Source: Thermoflexales bacterium | GTDB lineage: Bacteria > Chloroflexota > Anaerolineae > J036 > Brachytrichaceae | Reading direction: 5' to 3' | DNA: 46,273 bases | Assembly (NCBI GenBank): GCA_025056965.1 | Contig: JANWVF010000125.1 | Location: forward strand, 1 to 46,273 | In this document: positions 2,055 to 35,260 of the stretch, piece by piece | How the letters are laid out: each line of letters opens with the position of its first letter | How positions within the stretch are numbered: the stretch's first letter is position 1 | Translations under genes and position numbers: made by a program | The notes under the pieces: generated by a model | Databases searched by the model: none | What the model was told of the DNA's origin: nothing | The model's input: the letters and a program-made list of their open reading frames with translations, nothing else

Positions 2055-2903
2055 CTATGCGCCTTCCGGCGCGCCTGAGCGGCAACTGAAGCGCGGCGTG
2101 AAGCCGAAGGCCTGCTCCGCGCGCTTCCCGCTGATCAGCGCGTCGTAGCCCTGAATGTCGGCGCGGAGCTCAGCATCGGGGTAGTAGCGCGCAATCAGCT
2201 CGCGCGAGGGTAGGTCCACATGCGTATCGCGCGCGGCGATGAAGGCCACGGTGTGCGAGCCTGCCGGCAGTGGCGCCGTCGCCGCCAAATAGCACGCTCG
2301 CGCACAGTCGTGAATATGCACGTAGTGCGGCAGCGGATAACGCTCGTCGGGCGGGATCGGCTCCGGCAGGCGCGGCCAGCGCTGCACGGTCACGACATCG
2401 GTGAACCGCAAGCTGACCGTGGTCAAGCCGAAATCACGGGCGAAGTGGTCGGCAATCACCTCACCGACGTGCTTGGAGAGGGCGTAGTCGCTTTGCGGAT
2501 CCACCGGGTGATCCTCGTCCAAGGGGAAATAGCGATAGCGCACCGGACGGCGCGGCGGCACGGTGTGATTCACCTGGATGGATGACGCCCATACCACGCG
2601 CGACACGCCGAGATGCGCTGCCGCCAGGAAGACGTTATACGTGATGGCGATGTTGGTCATGAACGTTTGGGCGTTCGGGAACATCATGCTGTCGGGGATG
2701 GCGGCCAGGTTGATCACGGCGTCTGCGCCGTACACGACGTCGTAACAACTGCCCAGGTCGGTCAAGTCGGCGGCGATGTAGCTGCCCAGGCCGTCGCCGC
2801 GCCCGACGTTGTCCACGCCCAACACCTGAGCGCCCTGGCTACGCGCGTATTCGACGACCACGGATCCGATGTTGCCTTTGGCGCCGGTGACGACGATTTT
2901 CAT
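2055..2903 (-). CDS. NAD-dependent epimerase/dehydratase, extended SDR, possibly a uronate dehydrogenase-type enzyme
   Basis: A 282-residue extended short-chain dehydrogenase. The N-terminal Rossmann motif is VTGAKGNIG (residues 5-13), and the active site shows Ser in WASSIQ and the YxxxK pair in YALSKHVGE. The start ATG at 2903 has an AGGA seven bases upstream and lies 15 bases after the stop of the mannonate dehydratase gene, so the two are almost certainly co-transcribed and translationally close. Known relatives oxidise or epimerise nucleotide sugars or free uronates; the neighbour makes a uronate substrate the best guess, but this is inference. It is shorter than typical 310-330 residue nucleotide-sugar epimerases, which also fits the uronate dehydrogenase-like subgroup. 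Confidence 0.8.
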   Translation of the reverse strand: MKIVVTGAKGNIGSVVVEYARSQGAQVLGVDNVGRGDGLGSYIAADLTDLGSCYDVVYGADAVINLAAIPDSMMFPNAQTFMTNIAITYNVFLAAAHLGVSRVVWASSIQVNHTVPPRRPVRYRYFPLDEDHPVDPQSDYALSKHVGEVIADHFARDFGLTTVSLRFTDVVTVQRWPRLPEPIPPDERYPLPHYVHIHDCARACYLAATAPLPAGSHTVAFIAARDTHVDLPSRELIARYYPDAELRADIQGYDALISGKRAEQAFGFTPRFSCRSGAPEGA

Positions 2904-2918
2904 ACCCGTGTCCTGTAG

Positions 2919-3899
2919 TCACTCCTCATGCTTCTGACGATACACGGCTTCGCGCAGCCCGCGGATGTAGCCGATGGCGTAGAGGCGTCCGAAGGCCGAG
3001 TAGCCGGCGTTCTCGTTGCTATCACCCTCCACGGTCGGCACATGATCCGGGCGCAATACCCCCTCGAAGCCGATGTCGCGATAGGCTTCCATGCAGGCCA
3101 GCATGTCGGTCTTGCCGTCGTCGTGCCAGGTCTCTTCAAAGTGACGCACATCGCCTCTCACATCGCGAAAGTGCACGAAGCTGATCTTGCCCTGGCGGCC
3201 GAAGTGACGGATGACGCTCGGTAAGTCGTCGGTCATCAACGTGAAGTTGCCCTGGCATAGCGTGATGGTGTTGTAATCGCTGGGCAGCATGTCCACCAGG
3301 CGCTGGAAGTTCTCCACACTGGTGAGGATGCGCCCCACGCCGCGCAGCGGCGAAAGCGGCGGATCGTCGGGGTGGGCGCTGAGCTTGACGCCGGCGCTTT
3401 CGGCCACCGGCACCATGATGCGGAGGAATTCCTCGAGGTTCTTCCACAGGTCCTCCTCCTTCACCTCAGGCAGCGGCGGTCCCTTCTCGAAGTCACCGAG
3501 GTCAAATGAGGTGACTAACGAGCCGCCGCGCGACGGCGTGCTGGTGCTAGTGCGCGTCCAGTTCATTACCGCCATCCAGGCGTAACACCACACCGGGATC
3601 TCCAGCCTGCCCATGTTCTCGACCAGCTTGATGCACCACTCGATCTCTTGATCTTTGCCCGGCAGGCCACGCATGATCTTGTCCATCGGCGGACGCGCCT
3701 CAATTACGGCCAGCTTAAAGCCGCCGTCTTCATAGCGTTTCTTCATGCGCAGCAGAGGCATGAAGTCATACGGTGTCTCGTTTGGCCCACAGTCGCTAGG
3801 CAGGGGCAACCCGCCCACGGCGTAATTCACGCCAGCTTGTTTGGCCAGCTTCCACAACGGTGAGGGGCTGGGAGGGAGATATTCCGCTATCTTGATCAT
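2919..3899 (-). CDS. uxuA: mannonate dehydratase (UxuA-like)
   Basis: Predicted to dehydrate D-mannonate to 2-keto-3-deoxygluconate in hexuronate breakdown; a cytosolic TIM-barrel enzyme of the xylose-isomerase-like superfamily. The 326-residue product carries segments typical of UxuA: the WCYAWM stretch, the GVKLSAHPDDPP block with metal-ligand histidine, the TLCQGNF strand with cysteine, the FVHFRD motif and GVLRPDHVP near the C-terminus. I choose the ATG at 3899; the GTG at 3911 would add four residues. The gene leads an operon with the epimerase and perhaps proA. A perfect short palindrome with a one-base centre lies about 50 bases upstream (3949-3963). E. coli UxuA is longer (about 394), so this belongs to the shorter bacterial form. 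Confidence 0.87.
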   Translation of the reverse strand: MIKIAEYLPPSPSPLWKLAKQAGVNYAVGGLPLPSDCGPNETPYDFMPLLRMKKRYEDGGFKLAVIEARPPMDKIMRGLPGKDQEIEWCIKLVENMGRLEIPVWCYAWMAVMNWTRTSTSTPSRGGSLVTSFDLGDFEKGPPLPEVKEEDLWKNLEEFLRIMVPVAESAGVKLSAHPDDPPLSPLRGVGRILTSVENFQRLVDMLPSDYNTITLCQGNFTLMTDDLPSVIRHFGRQGKISFVHFRDVRGDVRHFEETWHDDGKTDMLACMEAYRDIGFEGVLRPDHVPTVEGDSNENAGYSAFGRLYAIGYIRGLREAVYRQKHEE

Positions 3900-3948
3900 G
3901 TAACGAAGCACCGTTCCCGAGCGGAGATAGGCATAAACTACAGCATCG

Positions 3949-3963: not shown

Positions 3964-4108
3964 GTCGAGAGCTAATCCCGCGCAGGTCTATCGGTCGCAC
4001 GCTGCGATGGTTTGCAGGTTTAACATTCTTCATCTAGCATGGCCGCATGGCCCTGTAGCAATGAATATGCCGCGCCAGGTCAAACAGGGCGGATGCTTAG
4101 CGCGCGAT

Positions 4109-4114
4109 TATAAC
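4109..4114 (+). promoter_or_regulatory. putative -10 box upstream of the RCC1-repeat gene
   Basis: TATAAC nine bases before the chosen ATG at 4124. The bases between them include GGTGAG, which may act as a weak ribosome-binding site, so the transcript would have a very short leader or none. Confidence 0.35.
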
Positions 4115-4123
4115 GGTGAGCCG

Positions 4124-6421
4124 ATGCGAAGTTTCAAAAACCAAGTCCTATCACGGGTGCGACTGACCATAGCTGTCCCTACACTCCTTCTTAGCCTCTA
4201 CATCGTTGAAACGTCGTCTGCGTCCGGCAATTCCCCGCTGATGTCCTCGGCAGGCGAGAAACACACCTGTGCGATCCGCGCAGGTGTCTTGTTTTGCTGG
4301 GGAGACAACATGTTTGGTCAGCTCGGGTTGGGCGATCGCGACGATCGCTTCGCCCCGCAGGCCGTGACCAAGTGGCCGGCCAAGGCACGCGGCGTCGTCA
4401 CTGCGGTATCGGCAGGTCGGAACTACACCTGCGCGGTTCGTGGCGGCGCTCTGTATTGCTGGGGATCGAACGATTACGGCCAGCTCGGGATCGGCAATCT
4501 CGCTTCCGGCGAATCGCCGTTGGGAGCATCGGAGCTTGAGCCCCGCGCGGTGTCCGTCCCCGGCCGTGGCGCCATCACCGCGGTCGCCACGGGATGGCGT
4601 CACACCTGCGCCGTTCGCGGCGACGCACTGTATTGTTGGGGCGACAACGGCAGCGGCCAGCTCGGGCTAGGTGACTCCGCGCAGTCAATGTTCATGCTGC
4701 CGGAGCGCGAACCGCGATTGGTGTCGTTGCCGGGCAGCGGCCCGGTGACCGCGATCGCAGCCGGTCGCGCGCACACTTGTGCCATTCGCGACGGCGCGCT
4801 CTACTGTTGGGGCGAAAACCGTGATGGCCAACTCGGCCTGGCCGACAAAGCCAATCAGAGCGCGCCAAAGGCGATTACTTTGCCCGGCAGTGGCGCCGTG
4901 ACATCCGTCGTCGCCGGAGAATCCCATACCTGTGCAATCCGCGGCGGCACGCTGTACTGCTGGGGCGAGGATGTGTTCGGACAGCTCGGGCCGGGCCGGC
5001 AGCCAGAAGGAAGCGCCTTTAGGACGGTGCAATTGCCCGGCAGCGGCGCGACCACGGCGCTCGCCGCCGGGAGGTCACACACCTGCGCAGTGCGCGATCA
5101 AGCCCTCTATTGCTGGGGCAACAACTTCCACGGCCAGCTTGGACTCGGAGATACCAACTTCCATCAAGCTGTGAGAGCCGTCGCGTTGCCGGGCAGCGGC
5201 CCGGTGACATCCCTTGCAGCCGGCGAATCGCATACCTGCGCGGCGCGTGGCAACACGCTATATTGTTGGGGGCGCAACGACCGCGGCCAGCTTGGCGCCG
5301 AGAGCATCACCAGATACGCCACGCCCCAAGCGATTAGTCTGCCGGGCGAAGGTAAAGTGTCCGCGCTCGCCATCGGAGTAGAAGGACATACTTGCGCCAT
5401 TCGAGGCGGCACACTGTACTGCTGGGGGCTGAACGATTACGGCCAGCTCGGAAGCGGGGACGATGTGACCTACGATCTTCCGCAGGAGATCGGGATGCCC
5501 GGACGCGGGGAGATCAGCATGATCGCGGCGGGGCTGTTGCACACGTGCGCGATCCGCGGCGATGCGCTGTTTTGCTGGGGCAGAAATGATTTTGGCGAAC
5601 TCGGACAGGGGGACACCGCCTTCCACGTCGGCCCTCAGTCGGTCAATCTAGCGGGCAGCGGCAAGCTCAGCGCAGTGTCAACCGGCTGGCTTCACACCTG
5701 CGCGATCCGCGGCAGCGCACTGTTTTGCTGGGGGCGCAACAGCTACGGCCAACTCGGGCTCGGCAATCAGGAGGACTTCACCACGCCCCAACAGGTCAAG
5801 CTGCCTGCCGGTGGGACGTTGAGCGCCGTTTCGGCCGGCGGCATGCACACCTGCGCCATTCGTGACGGCGCGCTGTATTGCTGGGGGCTGAACGACTATG
5901 CCCAGCTCGGGCTTGGAGAGAGCGGCAACAGAGCAATGCCTCAGCTGGTGTCGAGTTGGCCGGATCGCGGCGCCGAGGCAGTGACCGCGGTTTCATCGGG
6001 CTATTACCACACCTGCGCGATTCGCGGCGGTAAGCTGTATTGCTGGGGCGCGAGCATCTATGGGCAGCTTGGCCTAGGACAGACTCTGGAGAGCGCCACG
6101 CCAAAGCAGGTGAACCTGCCGGGCAGCGGGGCCGTGCAGAGCGTCTCGACCATCGCCGATCATACTTGCGCGATTCGCGGCGGCAAGCTGTATTGTTGGG
6201 GCAAGAACGACTACGGCCAACTGGGGTTGGGGAACTTCATCAACCGCAACACGCCGCAAGAGGTGAGGCTGCCGGGCAGCGGTGCAGTGACCATCGTCGC
6301 CGTCGGCAATGGCCACACCTGCGCCGTCCGCGACGGCGCGTTGTACTGTTGGGGGCGCAACGACTTCGGCCAGCTCGGCCTGCAGCGCCCTTTGACGCCG
6401 CAACCGGTTAAGCTGCCTTGA
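4124..6421 (+). CDS. secreted RCC1-repeat protein with 14 cysteine-paired repeats
   Basis: The 765-residue product starts with a signal peptide (positive MRSFKNQVLSRVR, then a hydrophobic core, cleavage near SSASG). The rest is 14 copies of an RCC1-type repeat of about 51 residues, each with the core HTCAxRxxxLxCWGxNxxGQLG and followed by a PGSGxVTxxxxG strand. Every repeat carries two cysteines spaced C-x8-C, which could form an intra-blade disulfide outside the cell. RCC1 repeats fold into seven-bladed propellers, so 14 copies suggest two propellers in tandem. The frame stays open 39 codons further up to 4007, but the ATG at 4124 puts the signal peptide at the N-terminus. No enzymatic domain is present; a binding or surface role is likely but unproven. 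Confidence 0.85.
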   Translation: MRSFKNQVLSRVRLTIAVPTLLLSLYIVETSSASGNSPLMSSAGEKHTCAIRAGVLFCWGDNMFGQLGLGDRDDRFAPQAVTKWPAKARGVVTAVSAGRNYTCAVRGGALYCWGSNDYGQLGIGNLASGESPLGASELEPRAVSVPGRGAITAVATGWRHTCAVRGDALYCWGDNGSGQLGLGDSAQSMFMLPEREPRLVSLPGSGPVTAIAAGRAHTCAIRDGALYCWGENRDGQLGLADKANQSAPKAITLPGSGAVTSVVAGESHTCAIRGGTLYCWGEDVFGQLGPGRQPEGSAFRTVQLPGSGATTALAAGRSHTCAVRDQALYCWGNNFHGQLGLGDTNFHQAVRAVALPGSGPVTSLAAGESHTCAARGNTLYCWGRNDRGQLGAESITRYATPQAISLPGEGKVSALAIGVEGHTCAIRGGTLYCWGLNDYGQLGSGDDVTYDLPQEIGMPGRGEISMIAAGLLHTCAIRGDALFCWGRNDFGELGQGDTAFHVGPQSVNLAGSGKLSAVSTGWLHTCAIRGSALFCWGRNSYGQLGLGNQEDFTTPQQVKLPAGGTLSAVSAGGMHTCAIRDGALYCWGLNDYAQLGLGESGNRAMPQLVSSWPDRGAEAVTAVSSGYYHTCAIRGGKLYCWGASIYGQLGLGQTLESATPKQVNLPGSGAVQSVSTIADHTCAIRGGKLYCWGKNDYGQLGLGNFINRNTPQEVRLPGSGAVTIVAVGNGHTCAVRDGALYCWGRNDFGQLGLQRPLTPQPVKLP
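4235..6421 (+). repeat. 14 tandem degenerate repeats of about 154 bases encoding RCC1 blades
   Basis: The repeats are obvious at the DNA level: variants of CACACCTGCGC, then GCGCTGTATTGCTGGGG, then GGCCAGCTCGG recur about every 154 bases. Copies differ at many third positions, so they are not a recent expansion. Confidence 0.85.
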
Positions 6422-9482: not shown

Positions 9483-10883
9483 ATGCGCTCGCCTCGTGTC
9501 GTCATCGTCGGCGCCGGCGGCTACGTCTTCCCACTGCGGTTGTGCATAGACATCCTCTCGTTTCCTGAGCTGCAGGCGGCCAACTTGGTGCTGTTCGACA
9601 TCAACGCCGCTAACCTGCGGCGCACCTACGATCGCGTGCAGCGCGTCGTCGCCAATCATCAACTGCCGGCCAACGTCGAAATGACGACCAACCGGCGCAG
9701 GGCATTGCGCAAGGCCGACTACGTCATCGTCGCCTTTCAGGTCGGCGGCATCGAGGCGTATCGTTGCGACGTTGAGATTCCTCGCCGTTACGGCCTAGAC
9801 CAGTGCGTTGGCGACACGCTGGGGCCGGGCGGCGTCTTCCGTGGCCTGCGCAGCGTCGCCGCTTTGAAGACAATCGCGCAAGACATGCAGGACCTGTGCC
9901 CGGATGCGCTCCTTATCCAGTATGCCAACCCGATGGCGATCAACTGCTGGGCGACGAGTGAGATGGGCATCAAGACGGTCGGCCTGTGCCACAGCGTACA
10001 AGGCACCAGTGCCATGCTGATCAAGCGGGCCGGTTATCGCTACGAGGATGTATCGTTCAAGTGCGGCGGCATCAACCATCAGGCATGGTTCACGCGCTTT
10101 ACCGACAAGGACGGCAACGACATCTACCCCAAAATCCGCGAGACCATGCTGCGTCAAAATCCTTCGCCTTTCGAGGCCGAGGCAAAGCCTCGCAAGCGGC
10201 GCAACGGCAAATTCCTTCAAACCGGCGCCGAGCATCACGTGGACGACGACGTGTATTACTCCGAGGGCGTGCGCACCGAGATCATGCGCACCTTCGGCTA
10301 CTTCCATACTGAGAGCAGCCACCACGGCAGCGAATACACCCCCTGGTTCCGTAAGAACCCGCAGACCATCGAGGCGTATATCAAGACGCGCTGGGACTAC
10401 TTCTTGATCAGCAGCGGACGCGAGACGCCGGAGCAGCAGCGCCGCTTGGAGGAGATGACGAATGGGCCGTTGCAGTGCAGCGAAGAATACGGCGCGCTGA
10501 TCATCCACAGCATGGAGACCGACCACAAGCGGGTGATCTACGGCAACGTGCCCAACGACGGCCTGCCCGGCAGCAAGGGCGCGCTCTCGATCAGCAACCT
10601 GCCGCCGAACGCCTGCGTAGAGGTCGCCTGCTTGGTGGATCGCAACGGCATTCAGCCGACGCTACATGGGCCGTTGCCGCCGCAGTGCGCGGCCATCAAC
10701 CGCACCAACATCAACGTGCAGGAGCTGGCGGTGATCGGCGCAATGACCGGCGACCGCGACGCCGTACACCAAGCGATCGCTCTTGACCCGCTGACCGGCG
10801 CGCTAATGACGCTGCCGCAGATTCGCGCGATGGTCAACGAGATGTTTGAGGCCGAACGACGCTGGCTGCCCCAATTCAAGTGA
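9483..10883 (+). CDS. glycoside hydrolase family 4, alpha-galactosidase-like
   Basis: GH4 enzymes use NAD+ and a divalent metal to cleave glycosides by an oxidation-elimination mechanism in the cytosol. The 466-residue product has the N-terminal nucleotide-binding motif VVIVGAGGYVFP, the metal-ligand cysteine in GLCHSVQGTSA (about Cys169) and histidine in GGINHQAWF (about His199). CHSVQGT is typical of the alpha-galactosidase/alpha-glucuronidase (MelA-like) branch, not of the 6-phospho-glycosidases; substrate could be an alpha-galactoside or alpha-glucuronide. A purine-rich AGAGGTTAAGG precedes the ATG. It ends six bases before the first transporter ATPase, so it is the lead gene of the transporter operon, implying that the imported compound is a glycoside. 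Confidence 0.88.
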   Translation: MRSPRVVIVGAGGYVFPLRLCIDILSFPELQAANLVLFDINAANLRRTYDRVQRVVANHQLPANVEMTTNRRRALRKADYVIVAFQVGGIEAYRCDVEIPRRYGLDQCVGDTLGPGGVFRGLRSVAALKTIAQDMQDLCPDALLIQYANPMAINCWATSEMGIKTVGLCHSVQGTSAMLIKRAGYRYEDVSFKCGGINHQAWFTRFTDKDGNDIYPKIRETMLRQNPSPFEAEAKPRKRRNGKFLQTGAEHHVDDDVYYSEGVRTEIMRTFGYFHTESSHHGSEYTPWFRKNPQTIEAYIKTRWDYFLISSGRETPEQQRRLEEMTNGPLQCSEEYGALIIHSMETDHKRVIYGNVPNDGLPGSKGALSISNLPPNACVEVACLVDRNGIQPTLHGPLPPQCAAINRTNINVQELAVIGAMTGDRDAVHQAIALDPLTGALMTLPQIRAMVNEMFEAERRWLPQFK

Positions 10884-10889
10884 ATTCCG

Positions 10890-11933
10890 ATGACACAGAC
10901 TGTCTCTGCTCCTGCACCCGCCCCGCCGACGCTCGACCGACCGATCCTCGAGGTCAAGGATCTGCGCACATACTTTTTCTTAGAGAGCGGCGTAGTGCGC
11001 GCCGTGGACGGCGTGACGTTTTCGTTGGCGCGTCGTCAGACTTTGGGTTTGGTCGGCGAAAGCGGCTGCGGCAAAAGCATTACTTCGTTGTCCATCATGC
11101 GCCTAATCCAAAGCCCGCCCGGCCGGATCGTCGGCGGCGAAATCAACCTGCATCTCAAAGAGACCGATGAGGTGGTGGACATCGCCAAGCTCGATCCGAA
11201 GGGCAGCTTGATGCGCCAAATCCGCGGCGCGGAGATCGCCATGATCTTCCAGGAGCCGATGACCTCGCTCAACCCGCTGCGCACGATCGGTAACCAGATC
11301 GCCGAAGCCGTGCAGATTCATCAGCGCGTCTCCAAGAAAGCCGCATTCGAGCGCGCCGAGGAGATGTTGGCCAAGGTGCAGATGAGCGCGCCCAAGCAGC
11401 GCGCACGGCAGTACCCGCATCAACTCAGCGGCGGCATGCGCCAGCGCGCCATGATCGCGCTGGCGCTCTCTTGCAACCCTTCTATCTTGATCGCCGACGA
11501 GCCCACCACGGCGCTGGATGTGACCGTGCAGGCGCAGATCCTCGACTTGATGCGCGAGTTGCAGGCCGACTTCGGCTCTGCGATCATCTTGATCACCCAC
11601 AACCTCGGCGTAGTGTCGCAGATGGCCGACCATGTGGCCGTGATGTACCTCGGCCGGATTGTTGAGTTTGCTGCGACCCGAGAGCTTTTCCATCATCCCC
11701 TGCATCCATATACCGAAGGCCTGCTGAAATCGGTGCCGGTGCTGGGGCGCAAAGGCAAGCAGGTGCTGGTGCCGATCAAGGGGATGGTGCCTTCGCCGAC
11801 CACGGTCATTCGCGGCTGCCCGTTCGCCGAGCGTTGCCCACACGTCAAGGACATCTGCCTTGAGCGCGAGCCTGCCCTAGCCGAGGTTGCCCCAGGCCAT
11901 CTAGCGGCCTGCTGGTTGCACATCAACCCTTGA
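10890..11933 (+). CDS. Opp/Dpp-family ABC transporter ATPase, OppD type
   Basis: The 347-residue product is a nucleotide-binding subunit that powers import through the permeases encoded downstream. Visible motifs: Walker [12 protein letters not shown] (about residues 50-60), Q-loop in MIFQEPMTSLNPL, signature QLSGGMRQRAMIA, Walker B ILIADEPTTALD and the switch histidine in LITHNLG. The C-terminus has the oligopeptide-family extension HPLHPYTEGLL and a cysteine cluster (CPFAERCPHVKDIC and a later Cys), which in some Opp ATPases binds an iron-sulfur cluster. It starts six bases after the GH4 gene. The next gene follows after 125 bases, a gap with a strong ribosome-binding site and no other gene. 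Confidence 0.93.
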   Translation: MTQTVSAPAPAPPTLDRPILEVKDLRTYFFLESGVVRAVDGVTFSLARRQTLGLVGESGCGKSITSLSIMRLIQSPPGRIVGGEINLHLKETDEVVDIAKLDPKGSLMRQIRGAEIAMIFQEPMTSLNPLRTIGNQIAEAVQIHQRVSKKAAFERAEEMLAKVQMSAPKQRARQYPHQLSGGMRQRAMIALALSCNPSILIADEPTTALDVTVQAQILDLMRELQADFGSAIILITHNLGVVSQMADHVAVMYLGRIVEFAATRELFHHPLHPYTEGLLKSVPVLGRKGKQVLVPIKGMVPSPTTVIRGCPFAERCPHVKDICLEREPALAEVAPGHLAACWLHINP

Positions 11934-12058: not shown

Positions 12059-14239
12059 ATGAAGAAGCAAAAACTCACGCGTCGTGAACTGCTGCGCATC
12101 GGGGCGCTTGGAGGCGCTACAGCAGTGATTGCGGCGTGCGCAGCGCCGGCCCCGTCCGCCCCTGCCGAACCGGCTGCCCCAGCCGCACCTGCTGAACCCG
12201 CCGCGCCCGCTGAACCCGCTGCGCCTGCTGCGGGCAAGATCAAGGATCCCATCCCCTATCCCGACCCACCGCCGCTTGAACTCGGCGGAGGTGAGCCTCG
12301 TCGCCAACCCATCAGCGAAATTGTCACTTATAAGGCGCTGCCGGAGTATTCCGAGCCGGAATGGGTCACGAAGCTTGTCAATGAAGGCAAATTGCCACCG
12401 GTGAAGGAGCGCCTGCCCAAGGAACCGCAGGTCGTGCTTACGAGCGGGATGAAGGATGGTCCCGGCGAGTATGGCGACCTGTGGCGCGGCTTCTCAGCCT
12501 GCCCCACCGCCGGCTGGAACCGCATGGCCGGCGTCAGCGCTGGCTGGTTCGGCATCGAGTCATACAGCGTGCAGCATCAATCGCTGTTCAAGGTCGGCCC
12601 ACTCTTCCGCGCTGACCAGGACATCGAGCCCTTCCCCAACTTGGCGAAGAGCTGGTCTTGGTCCGAGGATGGTCGTTCCCTCATCGTTAATCTGATCGAG
12701 GGCGCCAAGTGGTCCGATGGCGTGCCGTTCACGGCCGATGACGTCATCTTCACTTGGGAAGCTTACGTCATGGATCCGAACGTGAACTCGATGCGCACGC
12801 TCGACTCCTTCCGCTATGGTGGCGAGGACGCCAAGCTGGAGAAGATTGACGACTTCACCGTCAAGTTCACCTTTGGCATCCCCAAGCCACTAGGGGTGTA
12901 CTACGATCTAAGCGAGTACGGGTTTGTGATCTCGCCGAAGCACGCGCTGGAAGATTTCCACCCCAAGTTCAGCAAGCGCGATCCGAAGCCGACTTACAAG
13001 GACTTCGAGAACGCCATGCCGCCGGACAAGATTCCCATCCCTACACTGGGGCCGTGGGTGCCGACCGAGTACAAGACCGATGAGCTGCTGATCATGCGCC
13101 GCAATCCCTACTTCTGGAAGGTAGACGAGACCGGCAAGCAGCTGCCTTACTTTGATGAAATTCAGTATCGCAAGGGGCCGAGCGGCATCGGGCGCGACCT
13201 GTGCACCATGGCCGGCGACTGCGATCACACCAACCTGGAGAACCCCAGCTCGTATGTGAATGCGATGACCAAGGCGCAGGAGCCCGACGCCAAGTTCGCC
13301 ATCAACTGGGGGCCGGAGCTGCTTGGCTACGGCGTCGAGTTCAACTTTGCCGAGGAATTCGGCACGCAGGATGACCGCGATCGCGCCGTGCGTCAGCTCA
13401 ACCGTGACCTGCGCTTCCGCAAGGCGCTGAGCTACGCCACCGACCGCGACGGCATCGCCCAAGCCATCATGCGCGGGCCGTTCCTGCGTGGCTACGCCGG
13501 CGGCCTCTATCCGGGATCGCCCTACTTCCGCAAGGAAGACGTGGTGTACTACCCTTACGATCCTGAGTCGGCCAAGATCCTGCTCGACGAGATTGGCCTG
13601 CGCGACACCAACGGCGACGGCATCCGCGAGTGGACGGAAGGCCCAATGAAGGGGCAGCCGGTGGTGCTGCAGTTGCTCTCGTCCGAGGATGCGCAGGAGA
13701 CGCAGAGTGTGGCCGAAGCTTTGGTGAATCAATGGGCTGCTGTCGGCATCAAGATCAACACGCGCGTCGCCAACAGCACCACGCTGAGCGAGTTGGACAC
13801 TACCGGCAACTGGGACCTGCGCGTCTATCGCGGCGGCCAGGCGTTTGCCCTGCCTTCAGCCAACCCAGCTGTGCTCGCGCCGATCACCAAGCGCTTTGGC
13901 ATCCATCAGGAGGGCGACAAGCCGCGCAACCTAATGGACTTCGAGCCGAAGCTGATCGAGTTAATCGAGCAGTTCCGCGTGACGTTCGACAGCGCCGAGC
14001 GACAGAAGATCTTGTCCGAATATCAGCGCATCTTCACCCAGAACGTGTATCACATGGGGGTGTTCAGCGGCCGCTACGGCCTAGGCCTGGCCAAGCGCGT
14101 GAAGAACATCCCCGTAGGCACGCCGACCTTCCTATACACCTGGGTCGAAGACGCCATCATGCTTGAGCAACTGTGGACGCCTAAAGACCAGCAGCTGGCA
14201 CAGAACCGGCCCAACACCATCCCGGTATACAGCGCCTAA
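12059..14239 (+). CDS. ABC transporter substrate-binding lipoprotein, SBP_bac_5 family
   Basis: The 726-residue product begins with a twin-arginine-like leader (TRRELLRIGALGG) that runs into a lipobox ending IAAC (about Cys22), so it is probably exported folded and lipid-anchored. A Pro/Ala/Glu-rich linker (about residues 23-60) joins it to a family 5 solute-binding domain: SWSWSEDGRSLIVNL, the WSDGVPFTADDVIFTW block typical of the family, LRFRKALSYATDR, and a C-terminal WDLRVYRGG region. It is longer than classic OppA/DppA (about 540), like many carbohydrate- or large-ligand-binding relatives. The start has a strong AGGAGGT. The GH4 lead gene points to a sugar ligand; that is inference. Confidence 0.93.
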   Translation: MKKQKLTRRELLRIGALGGATAVIAACAAPAPSAPAEPAAPAAPAEPAAPAEPAAPAAGKIKDPIPYPDPPPLELGGGEPRRQPISEIVTYKALPEYSEPEWVTKLVNEGKLPPVKERLPKEPQVVLTSGMKDGPGEYGDLWRGFSACPTAGWNRMAGVSAGWFGIESYSVQHQSLFKVGPLFRADQDIEPFPNLAKSWSWSEDGRSLIVNLIEGAKWSDGVPFTADDVIFTWEAYVMDPNVNSMRTLDSFRYGGEDAKLEKIDDFTVKFTFGIPKPLGVYYDLSEYGFVISPKHALEDFHPKFSKRDPKPTYKDFENAMPPDKIPIPTLGPWVPTEYKTDELLIMRRNPYFWKVDETGKQLPYFDEIQYRKGPSGIGRDLCTMAGDCDHTNLENPSSYVNAMTKAQEPDAKFAINWGPELLGYGVEFNFAEEFGTQDDRDRAVRQLNRDLRFRKALSYATDRDGIAQAIMRGPFLRGYAGGLYPGSPYFRKEDVVYYPYDPESAKILLDEIGLRDTNGDGIREWTEGPMKGQPVVLQLLSSEDAQETQSVAEALVNQWAAVGIKINTRVANSTTLSELDTTGNWDLRVYRGGQAFALPSANPAVLAPITKRFGIHQEGDKPRNLMDFEPKLIELIEQFRVTFDSAERQKILSEYQRIFTQNVYHMGVFSGRYGLGLAKRVKNIPVGTPTFLYTWVEDAIMLEQLWTPKDQQLAQNRPNTIPVYSA

Positions 14240-14249
14240 GACGCGCGTT

Positions 14250-14291
14250 GCGTATTGCGTGTTGCGCCATCGGGCGCAGCACGCAATACGC
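14250..14291 (+). promoter_or_regulatory. long intercistronic hairpin between binding protein and permease genes
   Basis: Left arm 14250-14268 and right arm 14273-14291 pair over 19 positions (18 Watson-Crick plus one U-G), with the four-base loop ATCG. The arms begin GCGTATTGCGTG and end CACGCAATACGC. No T-run follows, so it is not a classical terminator. Its place, between a highly needed binding protein and its permeases, is where RNA-stabilising or attenuating hairpins (such as REP elements between malE and malF) are known to set unequal expression. Confidence 0.75.
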
Positions 14292-14308: not shown

Positions 14309-15307
14309 ATGGCTAATTACATTTTGCGTCGGTTGCTGATCGCCTTCTTCATGCTGATCGGGATCGCCTTCGTCTCGTTCGTGGTGATCCAGTTGCCGCC
14401 TGGCGACGTCGCGACCAACTATAAGAACTTTCTGTTGCAGCAACCCGGCATGACGCTAGAACAGGCTGAAGAACAGGCCAACAACCTGCGCCGGCGATAT
14501 GGACTTGACCAGCCACTGCCGATCCAGTTCGTCAATTGGATCGCGGGCATCGTCACGGAGGGCAAATTCGGCTTCTCATTTGCCTACCGCCGAGATGTGG
14601 GCGAGCTGATCGCCGAACGCTTGCCCAAAACGCTGGCGCTGGCATTAATGTGTCACCTGATCTCGACCGTGGTCGGCATCAGCATCGGCATCTTCGTGGC
14701 GACGCGCAAATATAGTCTGGCCGACAACGCCGCTGCCGTGATGGCTTTCATCTTTACGTCCATTCCACGCTTCGCCATCGCGCTGATCATCCTGTATGTG
14801 TTAGTCTTCACTTTCAAGCAGCCCAGCATCCAGGGATTCTTCTCACCGCAATACGTCATGGCGCCGTGGAGCCTCGAACGCGTGCTGGACATGTTCAAGA
14901 ACATCTGGCCGGTGCTCGTCATCGCCGGGCTGGGCGGCGTAGCCTACAACATGCGCGTGATGCGCGGCAACTTATTGGACGTGCTGGGCGCGCAATATGT
15001 CACTACGGCCCGCTCCAAAGGCCTGAAGGAGCGCCAGGTGATGGTGCGGCATGCTGTGCCTAACGCGATGCATCCCATTGTTGCCTACCAAGGCACTGTG
15101 CTGCCCTACATGATGCAGGGCGAGCTAGAGGCTGCCATCGTGCTCAACCTGCCCACGCTCGGCCCGCTGTTCTATGACTCGCTGGTCGGCCAAGACATTT
15201 ACATCGCCGGCTCGCTGCTGTTGATCTATGGTGTGCTGATCGTCGCCGGCAATCTCATCGCCGACATCGCCCTGGCCATCCTTGACCCACGGATTCGATA
15301 TAGCTGA
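14309..15307 (+). CDS. Opp/Dpp-family ABC transporter permease, OppB type
   Basis: The 332-residue inner-membrane subunit starts [19 protein letters not shown], the usual first helix of OppB/DppB permeases, followed by a large external loop (about residues 35-95) and about five more helices. The [13 protein letters not shown] segment and the cytoplasmic EAA-type loop ([28 protein letters not shown] region, shown here in part as RSKGLKERQ and HAVPNAM) are family hallmarks and dock on the ATPases. I place the start at the ATG at 14309, not the GTG at 14255, because the upstream extension would be translated from the hairpin. The ORF ends in RIRYS, as is typical of the family. Confidence 0.93.
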
Positions 15308-15392: not shown

Positions 15393-16565
15393 ATGGCTAC
15401 CGCAACGACAGGTACCCTACCTAGGCAGAAAGTGCCAAACGCACCCACCGGCCCGACACTGGAACAACTGCTCGAAGTGACCGAACGGCACGAGAGCTAT
15501 TTTCAACTGGTATGGCGGCGCTTCCGGCGCAGCCGCATCTCAATCATCGGTGGGCTGATCGTCATCACCCTGATGACGCTGGCTGCGCTGGCGGAGTTTT
15601 TCTCGCCCAACCCGATTGACCGCGATAACTTGAAGGACGCCTTCCTGCCGCCTAACCGCATTCACTTCATTGATGCCGAAGGCAACTTCAGCCTGCGGCC
15701 CTTCGTTTACGGCCGCGTCGCCGAGATGGACCCGCGCACCTTCCGAGTGACTTGGAAGGAAGACACGTCGCAGAAATACTACCTAAGCTTCTTCGTGCAA
15801 ACGTGGCCCTATCGGCTATTCGGCATCTTCCCGACGAACTTGCACCTCATCGGCGTCGAGGAGCCGGGGCGGCTCTACATGCTAGGCACCGATAAGCTCG
15901 GCCGCGATTTATGGGGCAAGGCGTGTCAGGCGGGGAGAATCTCCTTGACGATGAGCGTGTTCGCTGCGCTGATCAGCATCGCCGTCGGCTCACTTATCGG
16001 CATCGTCTCGGGTTACTACGGTGGGCGCGTGGATACTGCGCTGCAGCGCTTCGTCGAATTCGTCAATGCCTTTCCGCAGCTGCCATTGTGGATGGCGCTG
16101 GCGTCGCTTGTGCCCAAGACTGCCGATTCGTTCGTCATCTTTGTGATCATGTCGTGCATCTTCGCGCTGCTATCGTGGACGACGCTGGCGCGCGAGGTGC
16201 GCGGCAAGGTGCTGGCGCTCAGCCAGACCGACTTCATCTTGGCGGCGAAGGAGATGGGCGCATCGGACGCACGCATCATCTTCCGGCATCTCTATCCGAA
16301 TACGCTCAGTCACGTCATCGTCATCCTCACGCTCTCGATCCCCGGCGTCATCCTGGCCGAGTCGTTCCTCAGTTTCCTCGGCATCGGCATCCAAGAGCCG
16401 CTGACGAGCTGGGGTTTGTTGATGCGCAACGCGCAAAACCTTCAGACGCTTAGCTTACAGACGTGGATCTTGATGCCAGCGGCTTTCATCGTCTTGGCCG
16501 TGTTGGGGTTCAACTTCCTAGGCGATGGCCTGCGCGACGCAGCCGACCCATATGCTTCTCGATAA
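15393..16565 (+). CDS. Opp/Dpp-family ABC transporter permease, OppC type
   Basis: The 390-residue product is longer than the usual 290-310 because of an external insertion of about 100 residues between the first membrane helix ([20 protein letters not shown]) and the [12 protein letters not shown] motif that marks OppC/DppC. The rest is standard: helices around [20 protein letters not shown], the EAA-type loop with [20 protein letters not shown], and a final [13 protein letters not shown]. Longer OppC proteins of this sort occur in transporters with large binding proteins. The 85 bases before it contain a short tandem duplication of TAGCTGAC just after the preceding stop and no gene. Confidence 0.92.
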
Positions 16566-16598: not shown

Positions 16599-18398
16599 AT
16601 GCGGAGATTCGCGAGTAGGCCGATACGCGCAACCCAGTGGACGCTGATCTGTGGCGTCCTGCTGCCGGCGCTATTGACCGTGCTGGTAGCCTGCGCCGAT
16701 CAAACTGCCCAGGATTCATCCGCTCGCCTACCGGTTACCGTTTCCGGCGTTGTCGTGAATACGAATGGGCCGGTCGCCGGAGCAATTGTGCAAGTGCAGG
16801 GCACACAAAACCGGACTACCACAGACGCGCGCGGCGCGTTCACGCTGCATGGTGAGGGGCTGGGCAAGTCGCACGCCGTAACGGTGACTGCGTGGGCAGA
16901 AGGCCACTACATCGGCTGGACTACCCTCGATCCGCGCCGGCCGATCCATGCAGAGGGCATCTCGATCACGCTGCGCCCGCTGTTCGACGGCGACAACCAC
17001 GAATACACCTGGTTCAGCGAGGAAGGCATACACGGCTCGGCCAGCTGTGGGCTATGCCATCGCGAATACACCGAGTGGGAAGCCGACGCACACGCGCAGG
17101 CAGCCGTCAACCCGCGTTTCATTTCAATGTTCCGAGGCACGGACCTAAGCGGGCGGCGCGGCCAGCCGACGCGCTTCGCCGGCGACGGCAAATCGGTGCT
17201 GCCCCCCGATCCGGCCTTGCCCGACACCGGACCCGGCTTTCGATTAGACCACCCCGACCGCGCCGGCACGTGCGCTACGTGCCACACGCCGATGGCCGCG
17301 CGCATCCCAACGACAAACTCCTGCGCTTGGTCGGGCTGTCACGCAACCGGCACCGCCGACAACGCCGAGGCCGTCGGCGTCCAGCCCTCTATTCGCGGCG
17401 TGACGCCCGTAGGCCTGCATGGTATCGCCCTGGAAGGCATCGGGTGCGAGTTCTGTCACAAGATTCGCGAAGTGATCCTTGACCCAAGCACCGGCCTACC
17501 CTACTCGGACATGCCCGGCATCCTATCGCTTCGGCTGGCCCGGCCGCACGGCGATGCCCAGGTCTTCTTCGGCACGCTCACCGACGTCAGTCGCGAGCGC
17601 GATAGCTATTTGCCGCTGCAGGCGCAGAGTGAATTCTGTGCCGCCTGCCATTTCGGCGTCTTCGGCGGCGTGGTGAGCAACATGAAGATGACCGGCGGCA
17701 CCGTCATTTACAACTCGTACGGCGAGTGGTTGCACAGCCCGTATAGCCGCGCCGGGTCGCCCCTGTATCGCACGTGCCAAGATTGCCACATGCCGATCAA
17801 AGACACACCGTATTCGGTTTTCCCGCATCGCGGCGGCGTGGCGCGCCACTACCCGGTATACAACGATCACACCATGCTCGGCCCGTCGAACGAGGCCTTC
17901 CTGCGCAGCGCGGTGACGATGACCAGCACGGCAACAATCGAAGGAAGCACCGTGCGCGTGGAAGTCGGCTTGACCAACACCGGCGCCGGGCATGCCGTGC
18001 CCACCGATGCACCGATGCGTTCGGTCATGCTGGTGATCGAAGCCGTGGACGCCGACGGGCGCAGCGTGCCGCTGAAAAGCGGGCCGACGTTGCCGGATTG
18101 GACGGGCGACTATGCCGGTCGGCCAGGCAAAGCCTTCGCCCGCCTGCTGCGCGATAACTGGAGCGGCGAGATGCCGGCGACGGCTTTTTGGCGACCGACG
18201 ACTGAAGTCGCCGACACGCGCCTGTTCCCCTTTGTCACCGATTCGACAACCTACGTGTTTGATTGGCCGGCCGGCTTGAGCGGCACGGTCAGGGTGAAGT
18301 TGGTGTATCGGCGCGCCTTTTATAAACTAGCTCAGCAGAAAGGCTGGCATGACCCCGACATCATCATGGCAACGAGCGAAATTCCCATACGCTGGTGA
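16599..18398 (+). CDS. six-heme cytochrome c lipoprotein with an N-terminal carboxypeptidase-regulatory-like domain
   Basis: The 599-residue product has a lipoprotein signal ending LVAC (about Cys32), then a beta-sandwich like the carboxypeptidase regulatory domain (about 45-128: [31 protein letters not shown]). Next come heme-binding sites: CGLCH (150), CATCH (225), CEFCH (283), CAACH (347) and CQDCH (393), plus a CX4CH site CAWSGCH (242). The region after about residue 430 is a second beta-domain without heme motifs ([20 protein letters not shown]). It should sit outside the membrane and carry electrons, with covalent heme attachment. The gene begins 33 bases after the OppC gene and ends eight bases before the OppF-type gene, so it is embedded in the transporter operon. 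Its redox partner is not visible here. Confidence 0.9.
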
Positions 18399-18406
18399 GG
18401 TATTAG

Positions 18407-19432
18407 ATGAAGACGGCGGACAAAGAGAACTTGATCTTGGAAGTGACCGACCTGCGCATGTACTTCCCGATCTATCGCGGCCTTCTGCAGCGCGTCGTCG
18501 GCTATATAAAGGCAGTAGATGGCGTCAGCCTGTTTTTGCGCGAGCGCGAAGTGCTTGGGCTGGTCGGCGAAAGCGGCTGCGGTAAGACAACGGTCGGTCG
18601 CACTATCCTACGCCTATACGATCCTACCGGTGGCGAGATTCGCTTCCGCCGTAAGACCGGCGAATGGGTGGACATCGCGCGCATCAGCCAAAGAGAGATG
18701 AAACCGCTCCGCCAAGAGATGCGCATGATCTTCCAAGATCCGTTCAGCTCGCTCAATCCTCGCCTCACCGTCAAAGACATAATCAGCGAGCCATTGGAGA
18801 TTCATGGCGTGGCGCACGGGAAGGAAGCGGAAGCGCGCGTGGCTGAACTGATGCGCGCCGTCGGATTAGACCCGAACTACATGAATCGCTACCCGCATGA
18901 ATTCTCCGGCGGTCAGCGACAGCGCATCGGCCTGGCGCGCACGCTCTCGCTCAACCCACGCTTGGTGATCGCTGATGAACCGGTGTCGGCGCTGGACGTA
19001 TCGGTGCAGGCACAGGTGCTGAACTTGTTGGAAGAGCTGAAAGACCGGCTTGGGCTGACGCTGATCTTCATCGCTCACGATCTGTCGGTGGTCGAGCATA
19101 TCTCCGACCGCATTGCCGTGATGTATGTAGGCAAGATCGTCGAGATGGCCGACACGGAGGAGCTGCTACACAACCCGCTGCACCCTTACACCGAGGCGCT
19201 GCTATCTGCCGTCCCGCCCGCCGACCCGGACATTCAGCCCAACCGCATCAAGCTCCAAGGCGAGGTACCCAGCCCGGTCAACCCACCGTCCGGCTGCGTC
19301 TTCCACCCGCGCTGTAACTACGCGCGCCCGGAATGCAAGGTGAGCGCGCCGGAGCTGCGGGAGGTGCAGCCGGGGCACTTCGTGAGTTGCCACTTTGCCG
19401 AAGAGCTGCAACTGAAAGGGATTGGAGGGTGA
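18407..19432 (+). CDS. Opp/Dpp-family ABC transporter ATPase, OppF type
   Basis: The 341-residue product is the second ATPase of the transporter. Motifs: Walker [20 protein letters not shown]-loop [13 protein letters not shown], signature [14 protein letters not shown], Walker [13 protein letters not shown], switch histidine in [13 protein letters not shown], and the C-terminal [15 protein letters not shown] with cysteines in [15 protein letters not shown]. The N-terminal [11 protein letters not shown] with an insertion before the strand VDGVSLF is typical of OppF/DppF. GAGGT lies five bases before the ATG. Because the cytochrome gene separates it from the permeases by only short gaps, all are likely one transcript. 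Confidence 0.93.
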
Positions 19433-19438
19433 TGCGCA

Positions 19439-19804
19439 ATGCCGAACGCACCGACTATAGCCACTTCATCGCGCATCGCGGGCGCCTTGGCCTATCTCCC
19501 GATCATCGGCTGGCTAGTTGTGCTGCTGGTCCGACGGCATGATGCGTTCGCCTTGTTCCATCTGAAGCAATCCCTCGGCCTCGTCGTCTTCTTGATCGCG
19601 ACGTTCGTCGGCTGGGTGGCGATCGCTTGGCTGTCCGGCTGGATCCCCTATGCGTTCATCGTCGGCAACGCGCTGTTTGCGTTGGTCATTGCCGCCTATG
19701 TATTCGGATTCTTCGCCTTGATCGCCGGCATCGTAAACGCCGCTCGCGGGCGTGTGGCATTGCTACCGATCTTCGGCCGAGCGGCCAATCGGATTCGGTT
19801 TTAG
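19439..19804 (+). CDS. small DUF4870/Tic20-like membrane protein
   Basis: The 121-residue product has three to four hydrophobic helices. The first follows IAGALAYLPIIGWLVVLLV, then a charged turn RRHDAFALFHLKQSLGL, which matches the family's conserved FH..Q/K..L motif, then two more helices. Members of this family are small inner-membrane proteins of unknown function with a Tic20-like fold. It begins six bases after the OppF-type gene with GGAGG upstream, so it is the last cistron of the operon. A role in the transporter is possible but there is no direct evidence. The gene after it converges 90 bases away, and I see no clear terminator in between. Confidence 0.75.
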   Translation: MPNAPTIATSSRIAGALAYLPIIGWLVVLLVRRHDAFALFHLKQSLGLVVFLIATFVGWVAIAWLSGWIPYAFIVGNALFALVIAAYVFGFFALIAGIVNAARGRVALLPIFGRAANRIRF

Positions 19805-33124: not shown

Positions 33125-35125
33125 TCACGCCTCGAGGTTTAACCATTTCACCTCATCGGGGGTGAGCGCCACATCCAGGGCCGGCAACGACGTGCGCAGC
33201 TCATAGAGCGTGCGCGGGCCGATCAGCGGGAAGGTGGGGAAGGGTTGATGCAGCACGTAGGCCAGCGCGATGTTGATCGGCAGCACGCCGTATTTCTTCG
33301 CCAGCTCGCGCGCCCGGCGCAGCCGCTCGAAGTTGTCGTCACTGAACCAGCAGCGCACGCGCTCCGGGTCGGCCTTGAAGTCCGGCGTGGTGTTGTCCAA
33401 GAAGAAGCCGCGCGCCTGCGACGACCAAGCAAACAGCGGCATCTGCGTGCGCGTCAGCCAGTCGCGGAATTCCGGCGCGCTCGCGCTTAGGCAGCCTTCC
33501 CAAGGCGGCTCGATCATGCGCGCCAGGCTGAAGTTATTACTGATCGCGCTGAAACCCTGCAGGCCATGCGCGGCAGCATACGCATTGGCCGCCTCGATGC
33601 GCTCGATCGTCCAGTTTGATCCGCCGAAGGCGCGCATCCGACCGGCGCGGTAGTGCTCGTTCAGCACCTCTACGAATTCCCCAACCGGCACCTGGGGGTT
33701 ATCGCGGTGCAGCATGTAGATGTCCACATAGTCGGTTTGCAGGCGCTCTAGACTAATGGCGAATTGGCGGTTGAGGTCCTCCGGCGTGCAGAACGGTGTG
33801 TGTGCGCCTTTGTCCAGGATCACCACCTCTTCTCGGATGCCTCGATTGCGAATCCACTGGCCGAGTAAGGTCTCGTGCTTGCCGTTGCCGTAGATGAAGG
33901 CCGTGTCAAACGCGTTGCCGCCTCGCTCAAAGAACGCATCGAGCATGACCGAGGCGTAAGCGATGTTCTCCTGGTTATCCACACCCAACACCAACCGCGA
34001 GATCGGTTTGTCCACGCCGGCGATTCGGCCGTAAGGCATGCGATGGTCGCTGCGCCGAGCGAGTGGCCGGCGGCTGACCGTGGTCTTCATCTCCGGCGCG
34101 TCCGGCTTCTCTTGCTCGTAGGTCAGGCCGATGGCCTGCCGCCACTGGTCGAGGGTGCGCATGTTGCCTAGGCTGTCGTCCCAGCTCATGGCCGGGGAGG
34201 GCGCCTGGCGACGCGCGATGTTGTGCGCCACCGTGTCGGCCTCGATGGCATAGAGCCATTCGTCGCACTCGATCTCGATGATCTGCTTCGGCTCGCCGCG
34301 GCGCTGCACGATGATGTCGGTCACGCCGCCATGGCGCGCCGGCACCCAAGGCGAGGTGAGCAGGAGATCCCCTTCGCTGCCGAAGATCTGGACGACGTTG
34401 CGCATGTTCAGCATGACGCCGGTCGCTACCTGTGCGACGATGCCGCCCTCGAATTCGAGCGTGCCTACGGCATACTCGTCCACGCCGGTCGTCGGGTTCA
34501 GCTTGCCCGCGCCAAAGACTTTGAGGGGATCAGCGAAGTCGCGCCCAAGCGCAAGGCCGGCCACCAAGCGCGCCATTGAGACTGGGTAACACCCTACGTC
34601 GAGGATGGCGCCGCCGCCCAGCGCGTTGCTGAGCAGGCGATGCTCCGGACCGACGTGCGCATGGAAGCCGAAGGCTGCTTGGATCATGCGCACCTCGCCG
34701 ATGACGCCTTGCCGGATCAGCTCGACCAGCCTGGCAGTTTGCGGGTGGCAGCGATACATGAACGCTTCCATTAGGAAGACATCGTGTTCGCGCGCTGCCT
34801 CGACTACGGCCTGCGCCTGCGGATAGTTCAGCGCGAGTGGCTTCTCGCACAGGATGTGCTTGCCGGCCTCCGCAGCCTTGATGGCCCATTCGGCGTGCAG
34901 CGGATGCGGCGTGGCGATGTACACGGCGTCCACATCCGGATCGGCCAGCAGCGCCTCGTAGCTACCGTAGCGCTTTGGGATGTCGAATTCATCGCCGAAC
35001 TGATCGGCGGATGCCTGTGACCGACTGGCCACGGCGACCAAGATGCCGGTGGTCGAGCGCCGCACGCCGGCGGCGAAGGTCTTGGCGATGTTACCGGTAG
35101 AAAGAATGCCCCAGCGGAGTGTCAT
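33125..35125 (-). CDS. fusion of a Gfo/Idh/MocA oxidoreductase and an aldo/keto reductase
   Basis: One 666-residue chain with two redox domains. Residues 1 to about 370 form a Gfo/Idh/MocA dehydrogenase: WGILSTGNIAKTFAAG nucleotide-binding start, DAVYIATPHPLHAEW, the conserved lysine in ILCEKPLALN, and a C-terminal beta-sheet half. After a linker (about 370-390) comes an aldo/keto reductase barrel with the catalytic tetrad visible: Asp in NAFDTAF, Tyr in FIYGNG, Lys in ILDKGAH and His in YMLHRDN, then FGGSNW. The two are usually separate genes acting on sugars or inositols; the substrate is unknown. I use the ATG at 35125 (MTLRWGILS). No ribosome-binding site is clear; a 13-base tandem duplication (35135-35160) lies just upstream. 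Confidence 0.88.
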   Translation of the reverse strand: MTLRWGILSTGNIAKTFAAGVRRSTTGILVAVASRSQASADQFGDEFDIPKRYGSYEALLADPDVDAVYIATPHPLHAEWAIKAAEAGKHILCEKPLALNYPQAQAVVEAAREHDVFLMEAFMYRCHPQTARLVELIRQGVIGEVRMIQAAFGFHAHVGPEHRLLSNALGGGAILDVGCYPVSMARLVAGLALGRDFADPLKVFGAGKLNPTTGVDEYAVGTLEFEGGIVAQVATGVMLNMRNVVQIFGSEGDLLLTSPWVPARHGGVTDIIVQRRGEPKQIIEIECDEWLYAIEADTVAHNIARRQAPSPAMSWDDSLGNMRTLDQWRQAIGLTYEQEKPDAPEMKTTVSRRPLARRSDHRMPYGRIAGVDKPISRLVLGVDNQENIAYASVMLDAFFERGGNAFDTAFIYGNGKHETLLGQWIRNRGIREEVVILDKGAHTPFCTPEDLNRQFAISLERLQTDYVDIYMLHRDNPQVPVGEFVEVLNEHYRAGRMRAFGGSNWTIERIEAANAYAAAHGLQGFSAISNNFSLARMIEPPWEGCLSASAPEFRDWLTRTQMPLFAWSSQARGFFLDNTTPDFKADPERVRCWFSDDNFERLRRARELAKKYGVLPINIALAYVLHQPFPTFPLIGPRTLYELRTSLPALDVALTPDEVKWLNLEA

Positions 35126-35260
35126 AGTCTTGATTCCGAATCGCAAGTCCGAATCGCAAGATTGATGTTTAACACCTCTGTTTCGCGTCCCTCTGGCAAC
35201 CCACCAACTCGCCGGATTCTCGCCCCCTGCGTCCCTGCGCGCCTGAAACGTGGCCAATGG

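Follow-up and report, generated by a model that had tools for sequence, protein, structure and literature searches.

The window analyzed here is a 46,273-nucleotide stretch of a Thermoflexales genome in which a cassette of transporter genes, annotated with Pfam and NCBIfam, lies entirely on the plus strand. Its first gene (9483..10883) encodes a MelA-like GH4 alpha-galactosidase (PF02056/PF11975) that scores 526.7 bits against the NCBIfam alpha-galactosidase model NF011657 (cut-off 486) and whose orthologues carry a GLCHSVQ motif. There follow an OppD-type ATPase (10890..11933; PF00005 and oligo_HPY), a family-5 solute-binding protein (SBP, 12059..14239; PF00496, SBP_bac_5) predicted to bind alpha-galactosides, an OppB-type permease (14309..15307; PF00528), for which we adopted the ATG at 14309 as start in place of the TTG at 14255 of the listed reading frame, and an OppC-type permease (15393..16565; PF00528 and OppC_N). 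The next gene encodes a hexaheme cytochrome of 599 amino acids (CYT, 16599..18398), and the cassette closes with an OppF-type ATPase (18407..19432; PF00005 and oligo_HPY) and a small hydrophobic protein ("DUF", 19439..19804) without Pfam match, which usually follows oppF in a conserved order. The original prediction had placed the cytochrome gene 33 bases after a permease gene and eight bases before an ATPase gene. Both gaps proved exact on re-reading: 33 bases separate the oppC stop codon (TAA, 16563-16565) from the ATG of CYT, and 8 bases separate the TGA of CYT from the ATG of oppF. This second junction reads CTGGTGAGGTATTAGATG, with a GAGG element overlapping the CYT stop codon. No terminator-like sites were found in either CYT junction (oppC-CYT, CYT-oppF), and the region of the operon has no excess of promoter- or terminator-like sites. 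LacI-type regulator genes adjoin the cassette in four cytochrome-positive genomes (G057, G116, G140 and G343), which fits control of the cassette by sugar.

Elsewhere in the window, inspection by eye revealed a secreted-looking, RCC1-like repeat protein with CWG motifs (4007-6421) and a single frame that joins Gfo/Idh-type oxidoreductase-like and aldo/keto reductase-like parts (33125-35257). A UxuA-type mannonate dehydratase gene on the minus strand (2055-3911) adjoins a gene of the NAD-dependent epimerase family.

The best match of the SBP in the PDB is 6epy, "Periplasmic alpha-galactoside-binding protein" (E 9.5e-159, 533 bits, residues 68-712), which we take to come from Agrobacterium; the second-best match reaches 175 bits. 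Since the SBP matches 6epy and the first gene of the cassette encodes a GH4 alpha-galactosidase, we predict that the transporter is an alpha-galactoside importer of the Agp/Mel type. Alpha-galactosides are sugars of plant type, and such loci serve raffinose-family sugars and galactinol. Peptide or nickel transport was considered and rejected: binding proteins of these kinds do occur among the PDB matches, but the alpha-galactoside binder leads by hundreds of bits. The "peptide/sugar" transporter first proposed for this locus can be narrowed to one for alpha-galactosides. The same type of SBP is encoded in 248 records of a plasmid collection, and one rhizobial locus that we read also contains GH4, permease and ATPase genes. 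No relatives of CYT were found among these 248 records; the whole collection holds a single CYT match, in an Aeromonas record, with 45% coverage.

The six heme sites of CYT lie on the plus strand at 17046..17060 (site 1, CGLCH, residue 150), 17271..17285 (site 2, CATCH, residue 225), 17322..17342 (site 3, CAWSGCH, residue 242), 17445..17459 (site 4, CEFCH, residue 283), 17637..17651 (site 5, CAACH, residue 347) and 17775..17789 (site 6, CQDCH, residue 393). The five CXXCH motifs and one CX4CH motif of the original prediction are therefore all present in the 599-residue frame. In 20,000 shuffles of the CYT sequence CXXCH occurred 0.011 times on average and never more than twice (five reached in 0/20,000), so chance does not account for the five. 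The protein contains 14 cysteines, of which 12 belong to the heme motifs; the others are Cys18 in the signal stretch and Cys32 in the lipobox LVAC that ends the signal region (residues 1-32). A lipid anchor had been assigned to this protein, and its lipobox agrees with that, but the anchor is not a trait of the family: a lipobox-like match is present in 10 and absent in 16 of the 26 CX4CH proteins whose N-terminus is aligned, and is limited to the Roseilinea family and to G057 and G139. The window genome encodes CcmE and Cytochrom_C_asm proteins, so heme attachment to CYT is possible. All six heme motifs are invariant in the 28 aligned members of the CX4CH clade. Only three histidines outside the motifs (H165, H424 and H465) and, besides the methionine of the CHM motif, one methionine (M426) are invariant in this clade. 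With so few spare ligands conserved, not every heme has an obvious second ligand, and some hemes may be open, which would be more in line with catalysis.

Pfam matches, structure prediction and fold matches divide CYT into a TTR-like domain (residues ~44-129), the heme region (~135-436) and a C-terminal Ig-like domain (~437-599). The AlphaFold2 model of the complete protein has a mean pLDDT of 81.7 and shows a strand pair (353-360 and 363-371) before the last heme; the heme region modelled alone gave a poor model (mean pLDDT 60.4). The best fold match is the pentaheme cytochrome 5ze8 (Foldseek E 6.9e-17; VIA Z 22.8, 336 residues, 2.8 Å), which is also the best sequence match in the PDB (E 2.3e-12). 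For the N-terminal domain the nearest folds are the SusC extension 9hfj (dextran SusC) and carboxypeptidase domains. The ExtKL model NF040886 is matched by 43 of 44 family members, although the window protein scores 45.8 bits against this equivalog, under its curated cut-off of 250. Against Pfam Cytochrom_C552 it scores 16.3 bits, again under the cut-off (24.1), and matches to Cytochrom_C552/NrfA and MccA are weak. AvECN, NrfA and MccA are not among the fold matches listed for CYT, which does not count against them. Based on the 5ze8 fold match and the 43 of 44 members that match the ExtKL model, we assign CYT to the pentaheme c552/ExtKL (PHC) superfamily, in which it stands out by an additional TTR-like domain and by the insert that bears the sixth site. 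An excerpt of PMC11976967 describes ExtKL and the pentaheme cytochromes of cable bacteria as one structural family to which c552 is structurally homologous, and relates the c552/PHC fold to the archaeal cytochrome nanowire AvECN.

Across the 44 family sequences of our alignment (A3) the five CXXCH sites (1, 2, 4, 5 and 6) line up, with H, M or K at site 1 in relatives outside the operon. The insert with the sixth site, C-x-W-x-G-C-H, occurs in 28/28 operon-type proteins and in 0/16 other relatives; in the surrounding stretch (17292..17420 on the plus strand, residues 232-274) the motif columns are filled in the former and gapped in the latter. A3 omits L050, L021, L016, L022 and L128 on grounds of length or distance, and also L119, a partial sequence. 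In a CYT tree computed with window residues 232-274 left out, the 28 CX4CH proteins fall on one side of a branch with an SH-aLRT of 100, and the sixth site therefore marks an operon-linked clade. Within the clade the proximal residue of heme 1 is H in all 28 proteins; in the 16 relatives elsewhere it is H or M in seven each and K in two (examples are L012, L013, L014, L015 and L019). To judge from these sequences, one and the same family seems to alternate among H, M and K as the proximal ligand of heme 1. The relatives outside the operon offer further observations. Two five-site proteins (L148 8495-10057 and L149 8054-9616, in G237/G336; the first site of the G336 copy is CXXCM) adjoin genes that by eye resemble those for Rieske proteins, cytochrome b and four-heme cytochromes. 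G089 encodes a 1007-residue protein with ten CXXCH motifs, apparently two cytochrome copies in one chain (L050 4160-7183), and in three genomes a similar secreted-looking protein of ~1000 residues is encoded directly before the non-operon relative (L041 6649-9597, L044 6732-9791, L125 9425-12301).

To follow the gene pair, we searched 99 relatives, the window genome included, for the SBP (E ≤ 1e-60) and full-length CYT. Both were found in the same 11 genomes and neither in the other 88, four of which belong to the window's own genus. Among 396 Anaerolineae, 54 genomes contain the SBP at E ≤ 1e-100, 35 with and 19 without a CX4CH cytochrome. Two more genomes (G223 and G353) have CYT in the operon with no SBP match on a stretch that ends at or within a kilobase of the contig end. 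We found 39 CX4CH copies, 37 of them among Opp genes. The remaining two, the G110 copy and a second copy in G023, begin at the ends of broken contigs without an Opp gene, the G023 copy having 2-oxoacid dehydrogenase subunit-like genes downstream; no CX4CH copy with intact flanks was found outside an Opp operon among the 396 genomes. The genes oppC and oppF flank CYT in 34 of the 37 loci; in two (G083 and G133) CYT lies behind oppF and the small gene, and in one (G116) after oppC at the contig end; some genomes, such as G333, have parts of the cassette on different contigs. The cytochrome-bearing operon spans 16 genera and six families, with CYT copies at ~40-60% protein identity to that of the window. 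In a sample of 400 genomes from the phylum, CYT matched six times at E ≤ 1e-90: two of the matches (those of the window and of G015) are of the CX4CH operon type, and the other four, including one (G474) outside the set of loci read, begin no earlier than residue 267. The comparison of gene order put forward with the original prediction was thus borne out by the same slot in 34 of 37 loci and by the all-or-none pattern in the 99 relatives. The counter-case named there, transporters without and cytochromes away from the operon in close relatives, applies only at a distance: cytochrome-free transporters appear in the 19 genomes with more distant binding proteins, and cytochromes located elsewhere form a group of their own that lacks the CX4CH insert. 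These results support a conserved gene set of cytochrome and transporter.

The 19 cytochrome-free Anaerolineae encode more distant binding proteins (~45-54% identity). In 16 of them oppC is directly followed by oppF; the other three (G358, G370 and G375) have no readable oppC-oppF junction on the stretch. A GH4 gene is present on the stretch in 30/37 cytochrome-positive and 14/19 cytochrome-free genomes. Since importers without cytochrome exist in these 19 genomes and on rhizobial plasmids, CYT is a conserved accessory of one importer branch and not an essential part. The GH4 of cytochrome-free f19 cassettes (L130, L135 and L137) reads GLCHGVQ in place of the GLCHSVQ of cytochrome-positive ones, perhaps a sign of another sugar specificity. 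Some cassettes of genus g129 have extra reading frames between oppB and oppC (L121 8459-10434, L122 8765-11486, L123 8633-11513, L154 12698-18714).

On a tree of concatenated importer proteins from 34 genomes (G353, G358, G223, ten g129 and nine cytochrome-free genomes were left out), the cytochrome label needs two changes. The root was set at the midpoint (76% support) and, as this does not settle its position, a gain followed by a loss is not separable from two events. The CYT tree has the same main groups as the importer tree. Pairwise distances in 23 genomes correlate for CYT and OppC (r 0.91) and for CYT and OppB (0.90) as they do for OppB and OppC (0.92). Any neighbours that are inherited vertically should give an r of ~0.9; the correlations show joint inheritance and do not by themselves show function.

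We also compared genome-wide traits between the 37 cytochrome-positive and 19 cytochrome-free genomes. CcmE is encoded in 37/37 and 17/19, and heme-copper oxidase subunit I (COX1) in 35/37 and 15/19, with G083 and G133 as the two cytochrome-positive genomes without COX1. Most cytochrome-positive genomes therefore have a route to oxygen, and an aerobic as opposed to fermentative life was rejected as the basis of the CYT distribution, as neither gene gives a clean split. Phototrophy does not explain the distribution either (Photo_RC in 6/37 and 0/19). A sugar dehydrogenase of the Gluconate_2-dh3 type was dismissed as partner, because its distribution (6/37 and 7/19, not found in the window genome) does not follow the cytochrome. 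These four tests singled out no acceptor. Within the cassette we recognised no gene for an electron donor, an acceptor, a conduit or a sugar dehydrogenase.

We are almost certain that an exported protein of the c552/ExtKL superfamily with six heme motifs was recruited into an Agp/Mel operon in Anaerolineae and has remained in it, mostly in one slot, while the operon diversified: CYT combines a signal sequence for export, six heme motifs and an electron-transfer fold with a tight and old linkage to the importer. As for its role, we lean tentatively towards an electron outlet that is expressed along with the genes for sugar uptake, a reading to which we give somewhat less than an even chance. 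CYT would be produced along with the rest of the importer (binding protein, permeases, ATPases) in the presence of alpha-galactosides, presumably by co-transcription. Probably loaded with heme, it would reside outside the cytoplasmic membrane beside the SBP, lipid-anchored in the Roseilinea family, and would take electrons from oxidation of the imported sugar by way of the quinone pool or another membrane donor. Passing these presumably outward, to an acceptor outside the membrane, it would provide a capacity for electron disposal that is expressed along with the sugar that delivers the electrons. The shared presence in 11 of 99 relatives, the recurring slot, the single CX4CH clade, the divergence of CYT in step with OppC and OppB (as OppB and OppC diverge together), the fold of a solved pentaheme cytochrome, the family-wide ExtKL matches, CcmE in every cytochrome-positive genome and the LacI-type genes beside four cassettes all speak for the outlet. 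So do published accounts: ExtKL belongs to a Geobacter cluster of electron-conduit genes that includes the outer membrane protein ExtI (excerpt of PMC6148476), its cable-bacterium relatives are proposed conductors (excerpt of PMC11976967), and Anaerolineales genomes are said to abound in multiheme cytochromes, extracellular electron transfer being regarded as a possibility (excerpt of PMC7399161). Against it stand the cassette's want of a recognisable donor, acceptor or conduit gene, the COX1 of 35/37 genomes, the cytochrome-free importers of the same family in 19 Anaerolineae and 248 plasmid records, the co-divergence expected of any neighbours, and the shortage of obvious second ligands, since open hemes would suit catalysis better. 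That the genome-wide tests singled out no acceptor is why we hold the outlet no higher.

The original prediction had suggested, as one possibility, that the compound handled by the operon is itself oxidised or reduced at the surface. In such a scheme a sugar oxidoreductase outside the cytoplasm, such as a C3 dehydrogenase, would feed electrons to the hexaheme protein before or during import. GH4 enzymes use C3-oxidation chemistry, which makes a pre-oxidised substrate thinkable; CYT is exported and tied to a sugar importer, and its N-terminal domain resembles that of a dextran SusC. Nevertheless we regard this scheme as unlikely and see no direct support for it: the predicted substrate is an alpha-galactoside cleaved by GH4, which accompanies the importer with or without the cytochrome; cytochrome-free cassettes have the same importer genes; and neither a dehydrogenase in the cassette nor a Gluconate_2-dh3 pattern that follows CYT came to light. 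A closer union, in which CYT would bind the SBP or a permease on the outer side of the membrane and link the capture of alpha-galactosides to a flow of electrons, by substrate oxidation or redox gating of uptake, is improbable in our estimate; if true, a multiheme cytochrome would here be reserved for a single ABC sugar importer. CYT may instead be a gene that entered the operon once, persisted through linkage or co-regulation and has no functional connection with uptake. The importers that do without it, the passive inheritance of gene order and the r of 0.9 expected of neighbours would all be accounted for in this way, but CYT has been kept in six families despite its divergence, stays in the operon even where it lies behind the DUF gene, and has no intact-flanked CX4CH copy elsewhere, so that we consider a mere passenger distinctly unlikely. 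CYT could also act as an enzyme that reduces nitrite, sulfite or some other small molecule at a single open heme. CXXCK marks the active heme of NrfA, and the H, M or K at heme 1 of the outside relatives, invariant spare ligands fewer than the hemes and the weak Cytochrom_C552/NrfA and MccA matches point in this direction; the CXXCH at heme 1 of the whole CX4CH clade, the c552 and ExtKL proteins as nearest fold and family and the missing link of such a reaction to alpha-galactosides make it quite improbable. Least of all do we expect CYT to be a structural accessory of the binding protein or permease with hemes of secondary importance: TTR-like and Ig-like domains do flank the heme region, but all six heme motifs are invariant, and the rest of the importer is complete without CYT.

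Neither the cytochrome fold nor the importer is of a new kind. A search of the open-licence literature turned up neither a hexaheme form that has this insert and a TTR-like domain nor its constant position in an operon for alpha-galactosides. The usual places to look for multiheme cytochromes are gene clusters for respiration or metal reduction; here gene order binds a distinct hexaheme form to one nutrient importer. The two have remained together in many genera, which suggests that sugar uptake and electron transfer at the surface of the cell are linked in a way still unexplained. The operon comes with a predicted class of sugar, a known set of genes and, as natural controls, importers that lack the cytochrome, so the question whether disposal of electrons outside the membrane is expressed per substrate can be tested directly in Anaerolineae. 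Compared with the Agp/Mel-type importers (6epy and the rhizobial plasmid loci), the operon has both the 6epy-type binding protein and the linked GH4 alpha-galactosidase; SBP, permease, ATPase and GH4 are common to both systems, but the one rhizobial plasmid locus read lists no cytochrome gene. The CXXCK of the active heme in NrfA nitrite reductase is not found at any of the six CYT sites. Geobacter ExtKL and the PHC family likewise combine a pentaheme region with an Ig-like domain (excerpt of PMC11976967), whereas the neighbours of CYT are oppC and oppF in place of porin or ext genes (ExtI, ExtH). With the pentaheme c552 of Thermochromatium tepidum (5ze8), finally, CYT shares the fold over heme region and Ig-like domain (model residues 135-597), and it differs from that protein in its six sites, the inserted CX4CH, the N-terminal TTR-like domain and its location in an ABC importer operon.
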